A stretch of 62,508 nucleotides of DNA from assembly GCA_014360905.1 (NCBI GenBank), contig JACIWW010000018.1, forward strand, positions 1-62,508, written 5' to 3'. Numbering within the stretch: the stretch's first letter is position 1; every line of letters starts with the position of its first letter. Position numbers and translations under genes: made by a program. The notes below the pieces were generated by a model. That model was not told the origin of the DNA and searched no databases. It saw only the letters and a list, made by a program, of their open reading frames with translations. Below, piece after piece: positions 31,837 to 38,126 of this stretch. The stretch comes from Chloroflexota bacterium. GTDB lineage: Bacteria; Chloroflexota; Anaerolineae; UBA2200.

Positions 31837-33666
31837 TTACCAAGCTAGGTCTTCCAAGCCCAACTCTTGCAACTTGGCACGAGTAGGCATACCTGTTTGT
31901 CGGTCCCAGCCGCGCACCCGATAGTATGCAGGTAGCAGCACATCCATATCAGGCACCTGTGTCTCTACGGCATCGCCGGGCAGCGGTTGTAGCAGTAGTT
32001 TGGGCAAGCGGTCATTCTCAGCCGTCAGGCCCAACTTGCCATTGAGCAGACGCTTGAGGTTAAAAGCGCGCTCCCCAAGAGGCAGGAGATCGCTTAGCTG
32101 CAAGTCCCAACCGGTAGCGCTATTGAGCATGTCCAGGATATAGTTTGCTGGCGGATTGCCAAAAACGCACATAATCAGCGAATTGTAAAGACTACGCCAG
32201 TTCATGACCCGAGCGGTCATCAGTGCTTTCTCCTCCGAACTTTCCAGGCGGTTGCCAATCTGGATATCGAGTTCAGGCACTGGAGCACCCAGATCTACCA
32301 GGTACATATCACCCTGATTGTGACAGGCGCCTCGGGGCGAAGTGGCATAGACCAAGGCCATACCTGTAAACGCACGCGGTTCATGCATGGGCACTTCCAG
32401 CCCATTAACCTGCACTGCTAAATCCTCAACGCCATACTTGCGACCTAAGTAACGCGACCCTTCAGCCAGCACTGCTCCAAAACCCTTACGGCTAGCAATT
32501 TGTTCAACTAGGGTCAAAGCGGTTTCGATATCGCCCCATCTCAATTCCAGGCCGCCAGTATCGGCCTTGGAAATAATTCCTTGGTCGTACAAATAATAAG
32601 CGAAGGCAATCGTTACGCCTGCACTAATTGTGTCCAGCCCGTATACATTACATAAATGGCTGGCATAAGCCGCTCCGGGCAGGTCATCGCTGAGGATCAA
32701 CGAGCCAAAAGCAACCGCCGTCTCGTACTCTGGTCCATCAATCCTTTCTGTCACGTGTTTGCCTGTTACTTTCGTCACCCGACCGCAGCCCACGACGCAG
32801 CGATAGCAGGCTTTTCTGCCCATAAGGATGGTTTCGGCCATTGTTGCACCGCTTAGATTGGACACAGGTTCCCACAAGGCCATAGTAAAGTACTTGCTGG
32901 GCACATCGCCTATCCACATCGTCGTGTCAATCGCAGAAGCTGTACCGCCTGCAGCGAGAAATTGTGCCTTGACATCCGCTTTGATTTCCTCGGCCGCTGC
33001 CTGGGCTGCGGCTTTGAATTTCGCCTCGTCGGCCAGCGGCACCTGGAAATCACCGCCAACAGCGATTGCTTTCAGGTTCTTTGCGCCCATCACCGCACCC
33101 ATCCCAGTGCGTCCCGCTGCGCGGCCCCAATCATTCATCACGGCAGCGTACTTGACCAAATTCTCGCCTGCCAAGCCGATGCAGGCAATACTAAGTTGGA
33201 ATTGCTTTTGCTCATCTCGGATGGCGGCTTGCGTCTCATACGAGTCTTTGCCCCAGAGCCCCCTGGCATCCCTGAGCTCTGCCCCTCCATTCCAAATGAA
33301 AAGGTACACTGGATAAGGCGCTCTGCCGGTGAACAATATGCCATCGTATCCGGAGAAGCGCAGGTACGGACCAAAGCGGCCACCAGAGTTTGACTCACCC
33401 CAAAGGCCAGTTAGGGGGGAGCGGGCACAGACCACATAGCGCCCACACAAAGGAGCTGCCGTTCCAACGAGTGGCCCAGTCATGAATATCAGTGGGTTCT
33501 CTGGACCAAGTGGATCGGTATTGCGGTCAACACGATCGTAAAGGTAGTGGCAAGCCAAACCGGCTCCACCAACAAACTGCCGCGCGGCTCGTTCATCCAG
33601 TGGTAAAGTGGAAATATGACCGTTGCTTAGGTCTACGACCAGCAACTTGCCCATGAAACCGTGCAT
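31837..33666 (-). CDS. aldehyde:ferredoxin oxidoreductase family protein (tungstopterin)
   Basis: A 609-residue AOR-family enzyme oxidising aldehydes to acids, or the reverse, with ferredoxin. The N-terminal domain is canonical (GKLLVVDLSNG, FVGGAGLACHYLYD, MTGPLVGTAAPLCGRYVV). Ligands of the 4Fe-4S cluster are Cys287, Cys290, Cys294 (CYRCVVGC) and Cys448 (GACHNQGDMY). GRTGMGAVMGAKNLKAIAV is the pterin-binding segment. AAGGAGGACAAC precedes the ATG. It is the last gene of an operon with a dehydrogenase and an SCP2-like protein, consistent with aldehyde-alcohol exchange. Enzymes of this family are oxygen sensitive and indicate anaerobic life. Confidence 0.95.
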   Translation of the reverse strand: MHGFMGKLLVVDLSNGHISTLPLDERAARQFVGGAGLACHYLYDRVDRNTDPLGPENPLIFMTGPLVGTAAPLCGRYVVCARSPLTGLWGESNSGGRFGPYLRFSGYDGILFTGRAPYPVYLFIWNGGAELRDARGLWGKDSYETQAAIRDEQKQFQLSIACIGLAGENLVKYAAVMNDWGRAAGRTGMGAVMGAKNLKAIAVGGDFQVPLADEAKFKAAAQAAAEEIKADVKAQFLAAGGTASAIDTTMWIGDVPSKYFTMALWEPVSNLSGATMAETILMGRKACYRCVVGCGRVTKVTGKHVTERIDGPEYETAVAFGSLILSDDLPGAAYASHLCNVYGLDTISAGVTIAFAYYLYDQGIISKADTGGLELRWGDIETALTLVEQIASRKGFGAVLAEGSRYLGRKYGVEDLAVQVNGLEVPMHEPRAFTGMALVYATSPRGACHNQGDMYLVDLGAPVPELDIQIGNRLESSEEKALMTARVMNWRSLYNSLIMCVFGNPPANYILDMLNSATGWDLQLSDLLPLGERAFNLKRLLNGKLGLTAENDRLPKLLLQPLPGDAVETQVPDMDVLLPAYYRVRGWDRQTGMPTRAKLQELGLEDLAW

Positions 33667-33760
33667 GTTGTCCTCCTTGGCAAATGGTCAGGATGCCACA
33701 AAGCCAAACGAAAGGATATGAGGCATGAGACAAACAGCCCAGTATCCCGTGGTCTACATT

Positions 33761-34924
33761 TCAGAAGTCAATTGGCTTGCCTGCAAACGCATAGTGGTAA
33801 AGGCGCTCTAATTCTGCTCTGTCAGGAATGCGTGCACTGGCCACCAATGTGGCATCGCTTTCGGCATTTTCGATCAATTTGGGTAAAGCGGCTTCGAATT
33901 GCTGTGTGGTAATACCAGCATCTTGCAGTGACAGCGGTTGGTTGATGTTCCTGGCTAAATTGCGGATCTGGTTTGCCAGTACTCGCGCACCTTCCTCTGG
34001 TGATGCTACGGTGAGGCCGATAAAACGAGCGATATCTGCGTAGCGGTCGGCTATCACATTGCCTGTGAATTCGACCGTGTAGGGCAGGACCAGACCCACA
34101 GCGCGTCCATGGGGCATGTGAAAAACGGCGCCTAAGGAGTGCCCCATTGCATGAGCCATCGCTGCTAAGGAATTGCCAAAGCCCAAGCCAGCGATACAAG
34201 CAGCGTTGTGCATCTTCTCCCGCGCTTCCGTGTCCCTGCCATTGGCTACCGCACGCGGCAGATAATCAAAAACCAGCTTGGTCGCCATCAGGCACAGACC
34301 ATCGCAGAAGTCATTATGCCAGGCAGTCGTGTAGCCCTCAACTGCATGCGTCAGGGCGTCCATACCAGTATCGGCAGTGATCTGCGGAGGCAATCCGGCG
34401 ACAAACACCGGATCCACGATTGCCATGTCGGCCATGTTTTCACGTGAGCCAAGTGATAATTTGCGTTGCTCTTGCGTATCGGTCAGCACAATCGCCCAGG
34501 TGACCTCAGCACCAGTGCCGCTCGTAGTCGGGATCGTGATCAACCGCGCTTTTTGGCGCAACTTGAGCGGTTCGACCGGATTGATTCCCTCAGGCACCAA
34601 CTCGGGATGCTCATAGAGTACCCACATGGCCTTCGCCGCATCCATGGAAGATCCTCCCCCCAAGCCGATAATCCAGTCCGGTTCATACTCGCGCATGAGG
34701 TCTGCACCTCTTCTCACGGTCTGCAGCGAAGGATCAGGCTCTACTTCGGCAAAGACTCGATACTCTAATCCCGCTGCGCGCAGTTGTTGCGCGACCATCT
34801 CCACGTAGCCCAACCGGGCAATATTGGCATCGGTCACGATGAATGCTTTCTTCCCTTCGATGCGGGTTAATTCGCTTAATGCCTCTTCGCCGAAGACAAT
34901 CAAGGGGCTATTAAAGTACCACAC
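33761..34924 (-). CDS. iron-containing alcohol dehydrogenase
   Basis: A 387-residue Fe-ADH. GLGGGSSMDAAKA binds NAD(P). Metal residues are Asp189 and His193 (TGMDALTHAVEG), His258 or His262 (AMAHAMGHSLGA) and His272 (PHGRAVGLVLPY). The best match in style is to butanol/lactaldehyde-type dehydrogenases. It is a different branch from the dehydrogenase at 25575. It lies 94 bases upstream of the AOR gene and 115 bases after the SCP2-like gene. Confidence 0.93.
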   Translation of the reverse strand: MWYFNSPLIVFGEEALSELTRIEGKKAFIVTDANIARLGYVEMVAQQLRAAGLEYRVFAEVEPDPSLQTVRRGADLMREYEPDWIIGLGGGSSMDAAKAMWVLYEHPELVPEGINPVEPLKLRQKARLITIPTTSGTGAEVTWAIVLTDTQEQRKLSLGSRENMADMAIVDPVFVAGLPPQITADTGMDALTHAVEGYTTAWHNDFCDGLCLMATKLVFDYLPRAVANGRDTEAREKMHNAACIAGLGFGNSLAAMAHAMGHSLGAVFHMPHGRAVGLVLPYTVEFTGNVIADRYADIARFIGLTVASPEEGARVLANQIRNLARNINQPLSLQDAGITTQQFEAALPKLIENAESDATLVASARIPDRAELERLYHYAFAGKPIDF

Positions 34925-35039: not shown

Positions 35040-35447
35040 TTACTCGGGGAATTCGGTCGGGACCCTGGTCGTACATTCAACCAATTCTTTGGCTGCTTTG
35101 ACCGCTTTCATGATCTTGACCATGTCACCTTGGAGCTTCATCTGCCGCGTCATCATGCCCTGGATGGGATCCAATTTCTTATCAATCACTTTACGCCATA
35201 CGCTGAGCGGGGCACTGATCACGAACGCGGGCGTCTTGGCCGAACGGTCCTCATATACGCCGACTTCGCGGCACTTGCCATGCCACAAATCCATATACAT
35301 GACCAGCTCTTTTTCAATCGGTCCGCCTGGTTCAACGATGAAATAAAAATCCCCTTCCCAGGTTTTAGCCGCTTCTGCATAGGCCTCGCTGGCGTTAATC
35401 GCTTCTTGCAGTGCTTTGACCCACTCCTCGGATCCAAACTTGTACAT
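35040..35447 (-). CDS. SCP2 sterol-binding-like domain protein
   Basis: A 135-residue protein with the SCP2 pattern: an N-terminal helix ([13 protein letters not shown]), a beta sheet with [13 protein letters not shown] and a final helix ending near [16 protein letters not shown]. Such domains bind long-chain lipids or acyl derivatives. ATG 35447 is preceded by AAAGGAGGG. It is the promoter-proximal gene before the alcohol and aldehyde enzymes, so a carrier role for a hydrophobic substrate is possible (inference). Confidence 0.75.
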
Positions 35448-35486
35448 GTGACCCTCCTTTGTCAGATTTGAGACGCGCTGCTGCAC

Positions 35487-35514
35487 ATTATACACTTCAG
35501 CACATACATGTCAA
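35487..35514 (-). promoter_or_regulatory. strong promoter of the SCP2-ADH-AOR operon
   Basis: Consensus TTGACA (35514-35509) and TATAAT (35492-35487) are separated by 16 bases. The 306-base stretch 35448-35753 holds this promoter and the divergent one at 35636, with nothing else recognised. Confidence 0.75.
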
Positions 35515-35664: not shown

Positions 35665-35753
35665 ATGTGTCAGAGAATCACCACCAGGGAGGATACTAAA
35701 TTACGGATGCCTCCTCGATTCAGCCAACGATCGCATTTGGGAAGGAGATTTCT

Positions 35754-36779
35754 GTGCCCGAGAGATATTACGTGGCTATCGAAGGCCCCATCGGTGTAGG
35801 GAAGACCACACTGGCGCGACTCATTCACAAGCAACTGGATGCAGAATTGCTCCTCGAGGTCTTTGAAGAGAATCCATTCCTCAGCAAATTCTATACTGAC
35901 CGCGAGAAATATGCCTTTCAAACGCAGATTTTCTTCTTATTGAGTCGCTATCGCCAGCAGCATGATGTCATTGCCAAAGTGCTACAGCATTCCTCTTTGG
36001 TCAGTGATTACACCTTCGCCAAAGATCAACTTTTCGCCCGCTTGAACCTTGCCGGCAGCGAACTAGCAGTCTACGAAATGCTCCATGGCGTGCTCGCCGA
36101 AAAAATACCTCTGCCCGACCTAGTGGTCTATTTGCGGGCAAACTTGGATGTGCTGTTAGAGCGTATCGCTGTGCGAGACCGTACCTACGAGCGTGCCATG
36201 TCGAGCGAGTACCTAGCCGCTGTGATGCAAGCGTATGAGTCCTTCTTTGCCAACTATAATCAAGCACCAGTGCTCACCATTGACACAAACGAGCTCAATA
36301 TCGTGCGCAAGGAAGAAGACCTAGCCTATGTGCTGGAACGCATCAGGTCAGCGCTGGGCACGGGCACGCATCAACGTCCCCTGTTGGAGATAGAGACACC
36401 AGCACAGGAGCGAGGCAGAGCTATCATCGAAGGACGGCGTCGCCGCTTGAGCGATTTGCAATACTGGCATCGTGCAGCAGATCAAGAAACTGGAACCAAA
36501 GGGAACCTATACCGTGATTTCATTGCTCTGCAGGCAGAGGTAGGCAACATCGCCAACGAATTGGGGCAAGTCTGGGCCACACAAGAGAAATGGCTGGAGC
36601 AAGTTGGCAATCACGAGGAAGCTCAGGCTCGCGCTCTGCAAGAGCGCATCGCCACTCTGAAGGAGCGCTTGGCTGGTTCTTTGGCTTGCTTGCTCCGATT
36701 GGCCAATGACATGGGCATCAGTTTGGAAGAAGCCTACCTGGCCAGGATTCGAAAAGGCTGCAACCCACCGCATGCATAA
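35754..36779 (+). CDS. deoxynucleoside kinase fused to a MazG-like helical domain
   Basis: A 341-residue protein. Residues 1-205 are a deoxyadenosine/deoxyguanosine-type kinase for nucleoside salvage: P-loop GPIGVGKTT (11-19), EENPFLSKFY, FQTQIFFLLSRYRQ, SDYTFAKDQLFA and LVVYLRANLDVLLERI. Residues ~252-335 (LYRDFIALQAEVGNIANELG; RLAGSLACLLRLANDMGISLEEAYLARI) resemble an all-alpha MazG-type NTP pyrophosphohydrolase. However, the EExxE and ExxD metal motifs read AEVGN and RLAG, so this domain has probably lost activity. GTG start after GAAGGAGATTTCT. A plain kinase follows 15 bases later. Confidence 0.85.
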   Translation: MPERYYVAIEGPIGVGKTTLARLIHKQLDAELLLEVFEENPFLSKFYTDREKYAFQTQIFFLLSRYRQQHDVIAKVLQHSSLVSDYTFAKDQLFARLNLAGSELAVYEMLHGVLAEKIPLPDLVVYLRANLDVLLERIAVRDRTYERAMSSEYLAAVMQAYESFFANYNQAPVLTIDTNELNIVRKEEDLAYVLERIRSALGTGTHQRPLLEIETPAQERGRAIIEGRRRRLSDLQYWHRAADQETGTKGNLYRDFIALQAEVGNIANELGQVWATQEKWLEQVGNHEEAQARALQERIATLKERLAGSLACLLRLANDMGISLEEAYLARIRKGCNPPHA

Positions 36780-36794: not shown

Positions 36795-37430
36795 ATGAAA
36801 AAGTTTATCGCCGTGGCTGGGAATATCGGAGTGGGTAAATCAACGCTCACCGCACTGCTGAGCGAAAGGTTGGGCTGGGAAGCTTTCTACGAAGCCGTAG
36901 ATGACAACCCTTATTTGGCTGACTTTTATAAGGACATGCGCCAGTGGAGTTTTCATTCGCAGATCTTCTTCCTCTCGCGCCGCCTGCGCCACCTTCGCCA
37001 AATCCTCGACAGACCAGGCACGGTGGTACAAGACCGCAGCGTCTACGAAGATGCCGAGATTTTCGCCGAAAACCTGTACCGTCAGGGGCACATGACCGAG
37101 CGCGATTACCACACCTATCGCGAACTGTACGAAGCGATGACATTGTTTCTACCTCCGCCAGACCTGGTGGTTTACCTGCGTGCCTCCGTTCCCACCCTGA
37201 TGCAGCGCATTCGCATGCGTGGACGCGATTTCGAGCGGGACGTCTCCTCTGAGTACCTCGAACAGTTGAATCAGCTTTACGAGGAGTGGATTGAGCATTT
37301 CTCGCTATGTCCAGTGCTGACCGTACCTTCTGACAACTTAGATTTTGTCAAGTATAACTCGCACATGGAGCTCATCGCGGCCAAGATTGTGGAGAAACTC
37401 ACAGGGAAGGAGGTAGTCGTCTTTGACTGA
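36795..37430 (+). CDS. deoxynucleoside kinase (deoxyadenosine/deoxycytidine type)
   Basis: A 211-residue kinase of normal length. P-loop GNIGVGKST (9-17), DDNPYLADFYKDM, FHSQIFFLSRRLRH, the DRSVYEDAEIFAENLY motif and LVVYLRASVPTLMQRIRMRGRDFER. The DRS motif differs from the SDYTFAKD of its neighbour, so the two probably have different nucleoside preferences and may act as a heterodimer, as known for lactobacillar tandem kinases. ATG 36795 is 6 bases after GAGGAGG. Confidence 0.92.
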   Translation: MKKFIAVAGNIGVGKSTLTALLSERLGWEAFYEAVDDNPYLADFYKDMRQWSFHSQIFFLSRRLRHLRQILDRPGTVVQDRSVYEDAEIFAENLYRQGHMTERDYHTYRELYEAMTLFLPPPDLVVYLRASVPTLMQRIRMRGRDFERDVSSEYLEQLNQLYEEWIEHFSLCPVLTVPSDNLDFVKYNSHMELIAAKIVEKLTGKEVVVFD

Positions 37431-37499: not shown

Positions 37500-38126
37500 T
37501 TAATTCCTTTTCTCCAGCCAACGCCAAAAAGCATCTGCAAACAGGGTAGTTCGCAGCAGCCTCTCCATCACCGGGTCAGTTATATTTAAGGCGCGTCGAT
37601 CGCGCAGATACAGGGCCAAGGAACGAGCAAAGTAAGTACGAGCATCGCGACACGCTTCTGCGTCAAAGCTGTATCCCAACGAGAACAATTCGACTATACT
37701 GGCGCCAACCTTCTGCAAAGCAGGGTTAATTCCTCCCCCTTCAGAAAGCCAAGGTCCTTCCTCGCTTCCCGCGCTCCCCAGCAAGTGGTCAACCAAATGC
37801 CCTATAGGAACCAGCGCTTCCAGTGGGTCATTGACCCAATCAGACAGCCTTACATAAGCGACATGAAGCAACATACTCTGCTTCAGCCTTTGCTCTCCGA
37901 CCACGTAGCCAGAGGGCAATTGCGTGAGCACGACATGACCACCGGGTTGCTGAAGCCAGAAGCGTGCCAACCCGGAGGGGAAGATGCGCAACTGACCCAG
38001 CAGCTCGTCGAGTGGGGCCCAAATGTGAGAGTAATGATGCTGAACTTCTAAAGGCGACCGCTCAAGTGCTCGGGGAGCAATATGTATTCTATCTACTTTA
38101 AGCCGTTCGAGGGTCTGTTTGTCCAT
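37500..38126 (-). CDS. hypothetical protein
   Basis: A 208-residue soluble protein I do not recognise. It has a mixed helix-strand N-terminal half (IHIAPRALERSPLEVQHHYSHIW) and a helical C-terminal half ending RTTLFADAFWRWLEKRN. No signal peptide or membrane segment. The coding sequence is continuous, with the codon style of its neighbours. Divergent from the glycosyltransferase gene and convergent with the kinase pair. Confidence 0.7.
   Translation of the reverse strand: MDKQTLERLKVDRIHIAPRALERSPLEVQHHYSHIWAPLDELLGQLRIFPSGLARFWLQQPGGHVVLTQLPSGYVVGEQRLKQSMLLHVAYVRLSDWVNDPLEALVPIGHLVDHLLGSAGSEEGPWLSEGGGINPALQKVGASIVELFSLGYSFDAEACRDARTYFARSLALYLRDRRALNITDPVMERLLRTTLFADAFWRWLEKRN

Follow-up and report, generated by a model that had tools for sequence, protein, structure and literature searches.

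What purpose is served by a pyrophosphohydrolase-like domain that has lost most of its metal ligands and stays fused to a deoxynucleoside kinase? The question is raised by an open reading frame of 341 amino acids with a GTG start (35754-36779, forward strand) in the window, by which we mean the whole stretch of DNA that was analysed, 62,508 nucleotides of a Chloroflexota bacterium. A frameshift or pseudogene was ruled out, as the frame is open in all 6 genomes of the window's family. An earlier note, made from the sequence of this DNA, had described the product as a deoxynucleoside kinase joined to a MazG-like part of about 85 residues. The fusion was borne out by the Pfam family PF01712, by the Pfam MazG matches of the relatives and by the predicted fold, while the MazG-like part proved longer, about 110 residues (228-338) in four helices. 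The parts of the gene and its neighbouring kinase are given in Table 1.

Table 1. Coordinates in the window of the fused gene, its parts and the second kinase.
Feature	Coordinates	Strand	Basis or remark
Ribosome-binding-site-like GGAAGGAG	35740-35747	+	Precedes the GTG start of the 35754-36779 frame; read from sequence
Deoxynucleoside kinase domain, residues 1-200	35754..36353	+	PF01712 E 5.3e-40; Foldseek best match 8puu
Linker, residues 201-227, partly disordered	36354..36434	+	pLDDT <50 at 204-216 and 218-224
Degenerate MazG-like four-helix domain, residues 228-338	36435..36767	+	Fold prediction and Pfam matches of relatives
AEVGN, former EExxE metal motif, residues 261-265	36534..36548	+	Aligned to EExxE of 67/97 relatives
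RLAG, former ExxD metal motif, residues 305-308	36666..36677	+	Aligned to ExxD of 67/97 relatives
Former K-M-x-x-N-x-x-R nucleotide-holding segment, now R-I-x-x-G-x-x-P, residues 331-338	36744..36767	+	Alignment with 67 catalytic-type tails
Second deoxynucleoside kinase, DRS motif, ATG at 36795	36795..37430	+	PF01712 E 3.6e-59

The kinase and its neighbourhood

Residues 8-198 matched PF01712 with 137.8 bits against a curated cut-off of 27 (E 5.3e-40), the P-loop GxxGxGK(S/T) was present as GPIGVGKTT (residues 11-19), and the predicted kinase fold was nearest to deoxynucleoside kinases of Giardia (8puu, the best match, Foldseek E 2.6e-11), human and Mycoplasma. By family, the product is a deoxynucleoside kinase. 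It is like the non-TK1-like deoxynucleoside kinases (PF01712; Mycoplasma dAK 2jaq, Giardia dAK 8puu) in kinase domain, P-loop and fold, and differs from them in its MazG-type tail and in having SDYxFAKD where 8puu, as well as the second kinase of the window, has DRS. D85, Y86, F88, K90 and D91 of the first kinase were invariant across 74 aligned relatives, and SDYxFAKD is, as far as sequence can tell, the mark of a distinct kinase subfamily. DRS was present in 57 of 72 neighbouring second kinases; B. subtilis dGK, like the first kinase, is not known to have it. For the whole protein the predicted structure had a mean pLDDT of 83.9 and a pTM of 0.59, the placement of the domains relative to each other being uncertain; the tail was predicted to form helices at 232-246, 252-284, 287-320 and 324-335, following a poorly ordered linker (204-224).

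The second kinase begins 15 bases after the stop of the first gene on the same strand. The count was limited to the 101 loci that extend 900 bases or more downstream, and in 72 of them a second kinase was found on the same strand at -80 to 300 bases. It accompanied every state of the tail (catalytic 42/61, one-off 4/7, degenerate 16/19, tail-less 10/14), which argues that the pairing is independent of the tail state. Directly downstream of the kinase pair lies a 208-residue frame (37500-38126, reverse strand) that matched no Pfam family at E values up to 5; on the other side are an SCP2-like frame (35040-35495) and, on the reverse strand at 31837-34924, an aldehyde ferredoxin oxidoreductase gene adjoining that of an iron-containing alcohol dehydrogenase. 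The same genome has, elsewhere, a third deoxynucleoside kinase, and its single other MazG protein is a 501-residue frame that contains two MazG matches. A PF03819 match over the cut-off was found in 45/45 chosen genomes with degenerate, catalytic or tail-less forms, suggesting that the cell may be able to do without the fused activity. When the same 45 genomes were judged by eye, no clear pattern of an extra free-standing MazG was seen where the fused site had been lost.

MazG kinship of the tail and the loss of its site

On its own, the tail of the window matched no Pfam family at E<=0.01 and fell below every Pfam cut-off, that of PF03819 included; the nearest approach was PF12643 (E 0.023, 15.4 bits against 27). 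The link to MazG therefore rests on the relatives and on the fold. Pfam MazG (PF03819) was matched at E<=0.01 by 60 of 74 aligned tails, and its curated cut-off of 22 bits was passed by all five tails chosen for this comparison (L008, L017, L068, L007 and L010, 22.7-32.1 bits). A profile built from 59 mostly motif-keeping tails, with the window left out, matched solved MazG proteins, namely 1vmg (E 1.5e-11), RS21-C6/DCTPP1 (2e-9), Bacillus MazG (5ie9, 4.5e-9) and YpjD (5e-8). Structure prediction, which the earlier note had put forward as a check, gave a four-helix model of the tail (pLDDT 90.2) that superposed on 5ie9 with a Z of 11.2 (1.5 A, 89 residues); since structural Z values below about 13 can be common among helical bundles, the point is carried by the sequence evidence of the relatives. 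The 15 best rows of a structure search with the tail model were all of the MazG superfamily, two of them titled just "Bi-functional enzyme", which we take to be HisIE. Chance resemblance to MazG was ruled out by the PF03819 matches of the relatives, the profile matches to solved MazG proteins and the predicted fold, and the tail is, as judged from its relatives and its model, a true relative of MazG with the all-alpha NTP-PPase fold.

The four-helix fold is common to the tail and the all-alpha NTP pyrophosphohydrolases (MazG, DCTPP1/RS21-C6, YpjD, HisE, dimeric dUTPase), whose EExxE/ExxD motifs and K-x-x-x-N-x-x-R segment also occur in most of the fused relatives, whereas the tail of the window lacks those residues and is joined to a kinase. 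In an alignment of 98 full-length proteins (97 distinct ones and one copy of the window), all five metal ligands (E,E,E / E,D) were present in 67 of the 97, one was missing in 10, and two or more in 20. At these positions the window reads A,E,N / R,G, with one ligand kept and four lost, and the replacements at lost ligands differ from relative to relative. According to the report on MazZ of cyanophage S-2L, a (d)GTP pyrophosphohydrolase (7ody; PMC8342488), this MazG-like enzyme is a homotetramer, its ions are held by E34, E35, E38, E50 and D53, and a second chain contributes K76, N80 and W85 to the pocket, with R83 beside the phosphate. With the register set by spacing and not by structural superposition, the metal ligands and K76, N80, R83 and W85 fall in line with residues of the catalytic fused tails, the latter four at residues 331, 335, 338 and 340 of the window, where it has R, G, P and H. 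Among the 67 catalytic-type tails this segment was nearly uniform, with K in 66, M in 67, N in 67, R in 66 and W in 58. MazZ is a stand-alone enzyme with a guanine-reading Asp60 (PMC8342488), in contrast to the fused tails; at the aligned residue 315 all 67 catalytic fused tails have Lys, which suggests a base preference other than that of MazZ.

In order to weigh the site against its scaffold, nine site positions were compared with 19 further conserved positions of non-polar character, the site list having been made after the alignment and the MazZ paper had been viewed. Over the window's family (six genomes), 5/54 site positions and 74/114 scaffold positions were kept (Fisher p 2e-12, the rows not being independent), and in the window alone 1/9 and 13/19, respectively (p 0.013), which points to a selective loss of the site with the scaffold retained. 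The degenerate tail was common to all six genomes, among which the site positions also differ; the window still has Gln236, His239 and Asp243, three residues that catalytic tails conserve. Because of its kinship to catalytic MazG, the site of the window's family must be regarded as lost, and MazG descent together with this loss is, in our judgement, close to certain. The replacement of EExxE and ExxD by AEVGN and RLAG, pointed out in the earlier note, held in the alignment with full-length relatives. Its reading of the domain as one that binds nucleotides without hydrolysing them was upheld in so far as the metal site is gone; continued dNTP binding was not supported, since the residues aligned with K/N/R/W are R, G, P and H. 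The tail of the window's family is thus probably devoid of both hydrolysis and canonical nucleotide binding.

Distribution, history and selection

Within the class, a search with the whole profile at E<=1e-40, in which tail-less and second kinases were counted too, matched 209 of 298 sampled genomes, and in 76 class genomes a match reached at least profile position 333 of 348. Across the phylum, 26 of 251 sampled genomes matched at 1e-60; two outside the class (G307 and G430) had matches that stopped at positions 204 and 223, without the tail, and within this sample of Chloroflexota the fusion was seen in the window's class only. When relatives were searched for across bacteria and archaea, 448 were obtained, and each of the best 80 had a title that placed it in Chloroflexota. 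A phage origin was rejected, as a scan of viral contigs yielded one distant kinase whose match ended before the tail. No paper on a fusion of a deoxynucleoside kinase with MazG was found in literature searches, subscription papers and the Pfam architecture tables being outside their scope; both component families are known, but for neither the fusion nor the inactivated form under selection did these searches turn up a published description.

The full-length form was present in 6/6 genomes of the window's family and in a seventh genome of its order. Beyond the 97 full-length rows there were 14 more without all or most of the tail, 13 of which stop in or shortly past the linker, with L175 being a shortened remnant. 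In a further 20 loci outside the tree the tails were shortened, divergent or absent. Several families (L179-L193) had shortened C-terminal tails, many with the pattern F-x-x-L/x-x-A-V/I/M-G, which are apparently reduced MazG remnants. Rows were selected by their similarity to the window, first as the best 80 of 448, next as the top 30 in the class sample and last as 60 regions from a list, and the proportions of catalytic, degenerate and tail-less forms should therefore not be read as frequencies in the population. A search with the tail profile for a tail in another frame at tail-less loci found none; the only match was at L163, a gene cut by the contig end that was removed from the tail-less group. 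On a tree of the kinase columns, the degenerate state took 13-14 changes and tail absence 7-8, and the hypothesis that the 20 degenerate rows arose only once was rejected (p-AU 3.2e-5). As this tree is unrooted, loss of the domain in the tail-less lines is put as likely. In the order-level relative L124, EExxE is kept and RLAE stands in place of ExxD; a clade of L124 and the window's family was not rejected (p-AU 0.752), and it is thus possible that ExxD was lost before EExxE in the window's line.

Selection on the tail was estimated from pairwise dN/dS by the method of Nei and Gojobori, in which dS was often >1. Between the window and the same-genus L119 (the same protein as L006) the tail had a dN/dS of 0.055 (bootstrap 0.024-0.106, with 16/400 saturated draws excluded) and the kinase 0.031. 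Two other pairs of the window's family gave 0.066 for the tail and 0.070 for the kinase (L120 and L121) and 0.193 for the tail (L122 and L123), and six bootstrapped catalytic pairs gave 0.052-0.176 for the tail. Other lineages with part or all of the site lost, compared with catalytic relatives, had higher values (L059, 0.521 and 0.507; L160, 0.58; L133, 0.313), the L059 and L160 pairs straddling the loss of the site, which the two genus pairs postdate. The tail is still under purifying selection within two genera. Across the six genomes of the family 35% of tail columns were invariant, below all 29 catalytic sextets (37-67%, median 61%) matched to the family by similar kinase conservation, and over the whole family window-type tails evolve faster than catalytic ones. 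A fair reading is that the family's tail is under reduced but real constraint.

The role of the tail

The reading that we consider best, and to which we give about an even chance, is that the tail was once a hydrolase, lost its site and kept its helical fold, which now serves the kinase without catalysis, as a module for structure or oligomerisation. The ancestor would have been a two-domain enzyme of the Anaerolineae-type Chloroflexota, a deoxynucleoside kinase joined to a MazG-type NTP pyrophosphohydrolase, in which the kinase half would turn nucleoside into dNMP and the catalytic tail, as its residues suggest, dNTP into dNMP and PPi. The window's family would then have lost both the metal ligands and the residues that hold the nucleotide, while retaining the helical fold. 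MazG domains form dimers and tetramers, and the tail therefore probably joins kinase dimers, or the first kinase with the downstream kinase, into a larger assembly that would tune substrate affinity; such a role would be the simplest use of a selected scaffold. A precedent among deoxynucleoside kinases is the tetrameric deoxyadenosine kinase of Giardia, the best fold match here, where terminal extensions govern both assembly and affinity; they tetramerise the enzyme, and their deletion lifts KM about 50-fold (PMC11662666). These extensions are short tails and not a MazG domain. A structural role is favoured by the kept fold, the low dN/dS within two genera and the presence of the tail throughout the family. 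Against it are the weaker constraint on the family's tails than on catalytic ones, the value of the L122-L123 pair and the many relatives with the tail absent or shortened, which indicate that it is dispensable in the class.

The main rival is slow decay, in which the need for hydrolysis had gone, the site disappeared and the domain is drifting toward the shortened and tail-less forms of other families. The repeated losses (20/97 degenerate rows, 14 without the tail or most of it, and the rejected single origin), remnants such as L175, the PF03819 matches in all 45 genomes and the faster evolution of the family's tails all speak for a vestige; however, the within-genus values of 0.055 and 0.066 are catalytic-like and several-fold under those of L059 or L160, and the tail is full-length and open in 6/6 genomes of the family, so that we hold decay to be a serious but less probable account. 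Binding of dNTPs without cutting, by which the tail would regulate the kinase as the earlier note had proposed, appears improbable. The fold is retained under selection and Gln236, His239 and Asp243 are still in place, but neither metal motif is left and the residues aligned with K/N/R/W have been replaced, so that the old pocket is unlikely to serve as a dNTP sensor, and the site positions vary within the six genomes, unlike a maintained pocket. MazG sites form between chains, and it may be asked whether the tail is still a hydrolase by way of replaced ligands or a partner chain completing the site, much as the MazZ pocket is built by residues of two chains (PMC8342488). With four of five metal ligands absent from the chain, replacements that vary among relatives, the genome's other MazG protein located elsewhere and no partner known, we regard this as very improbable.

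One class of bacteria carries the same gene with its hydrolase catalytic, inactivated, shortened or missing, a natural series for testing the role of the domain. The stage that tells most is that of the window's family, in which the domain is kept and the site is gone. We suggest, tentatively, that the Anaerolineae-type protein is a bifunctional enzyme making dNMP from both ends, and that its hydrolase half in the window's family is a selected pseudoenzyme assembling or regulating the kinase pair. If this is true, salvage and pool limitation would be found in one chain, the kinase working from the nucleoside and MazG from the dNTP, and the fusion of a salvage kinase with a dNTP pyrophosphohydrolase would set opposing control of the dNTP pool in a single protein.
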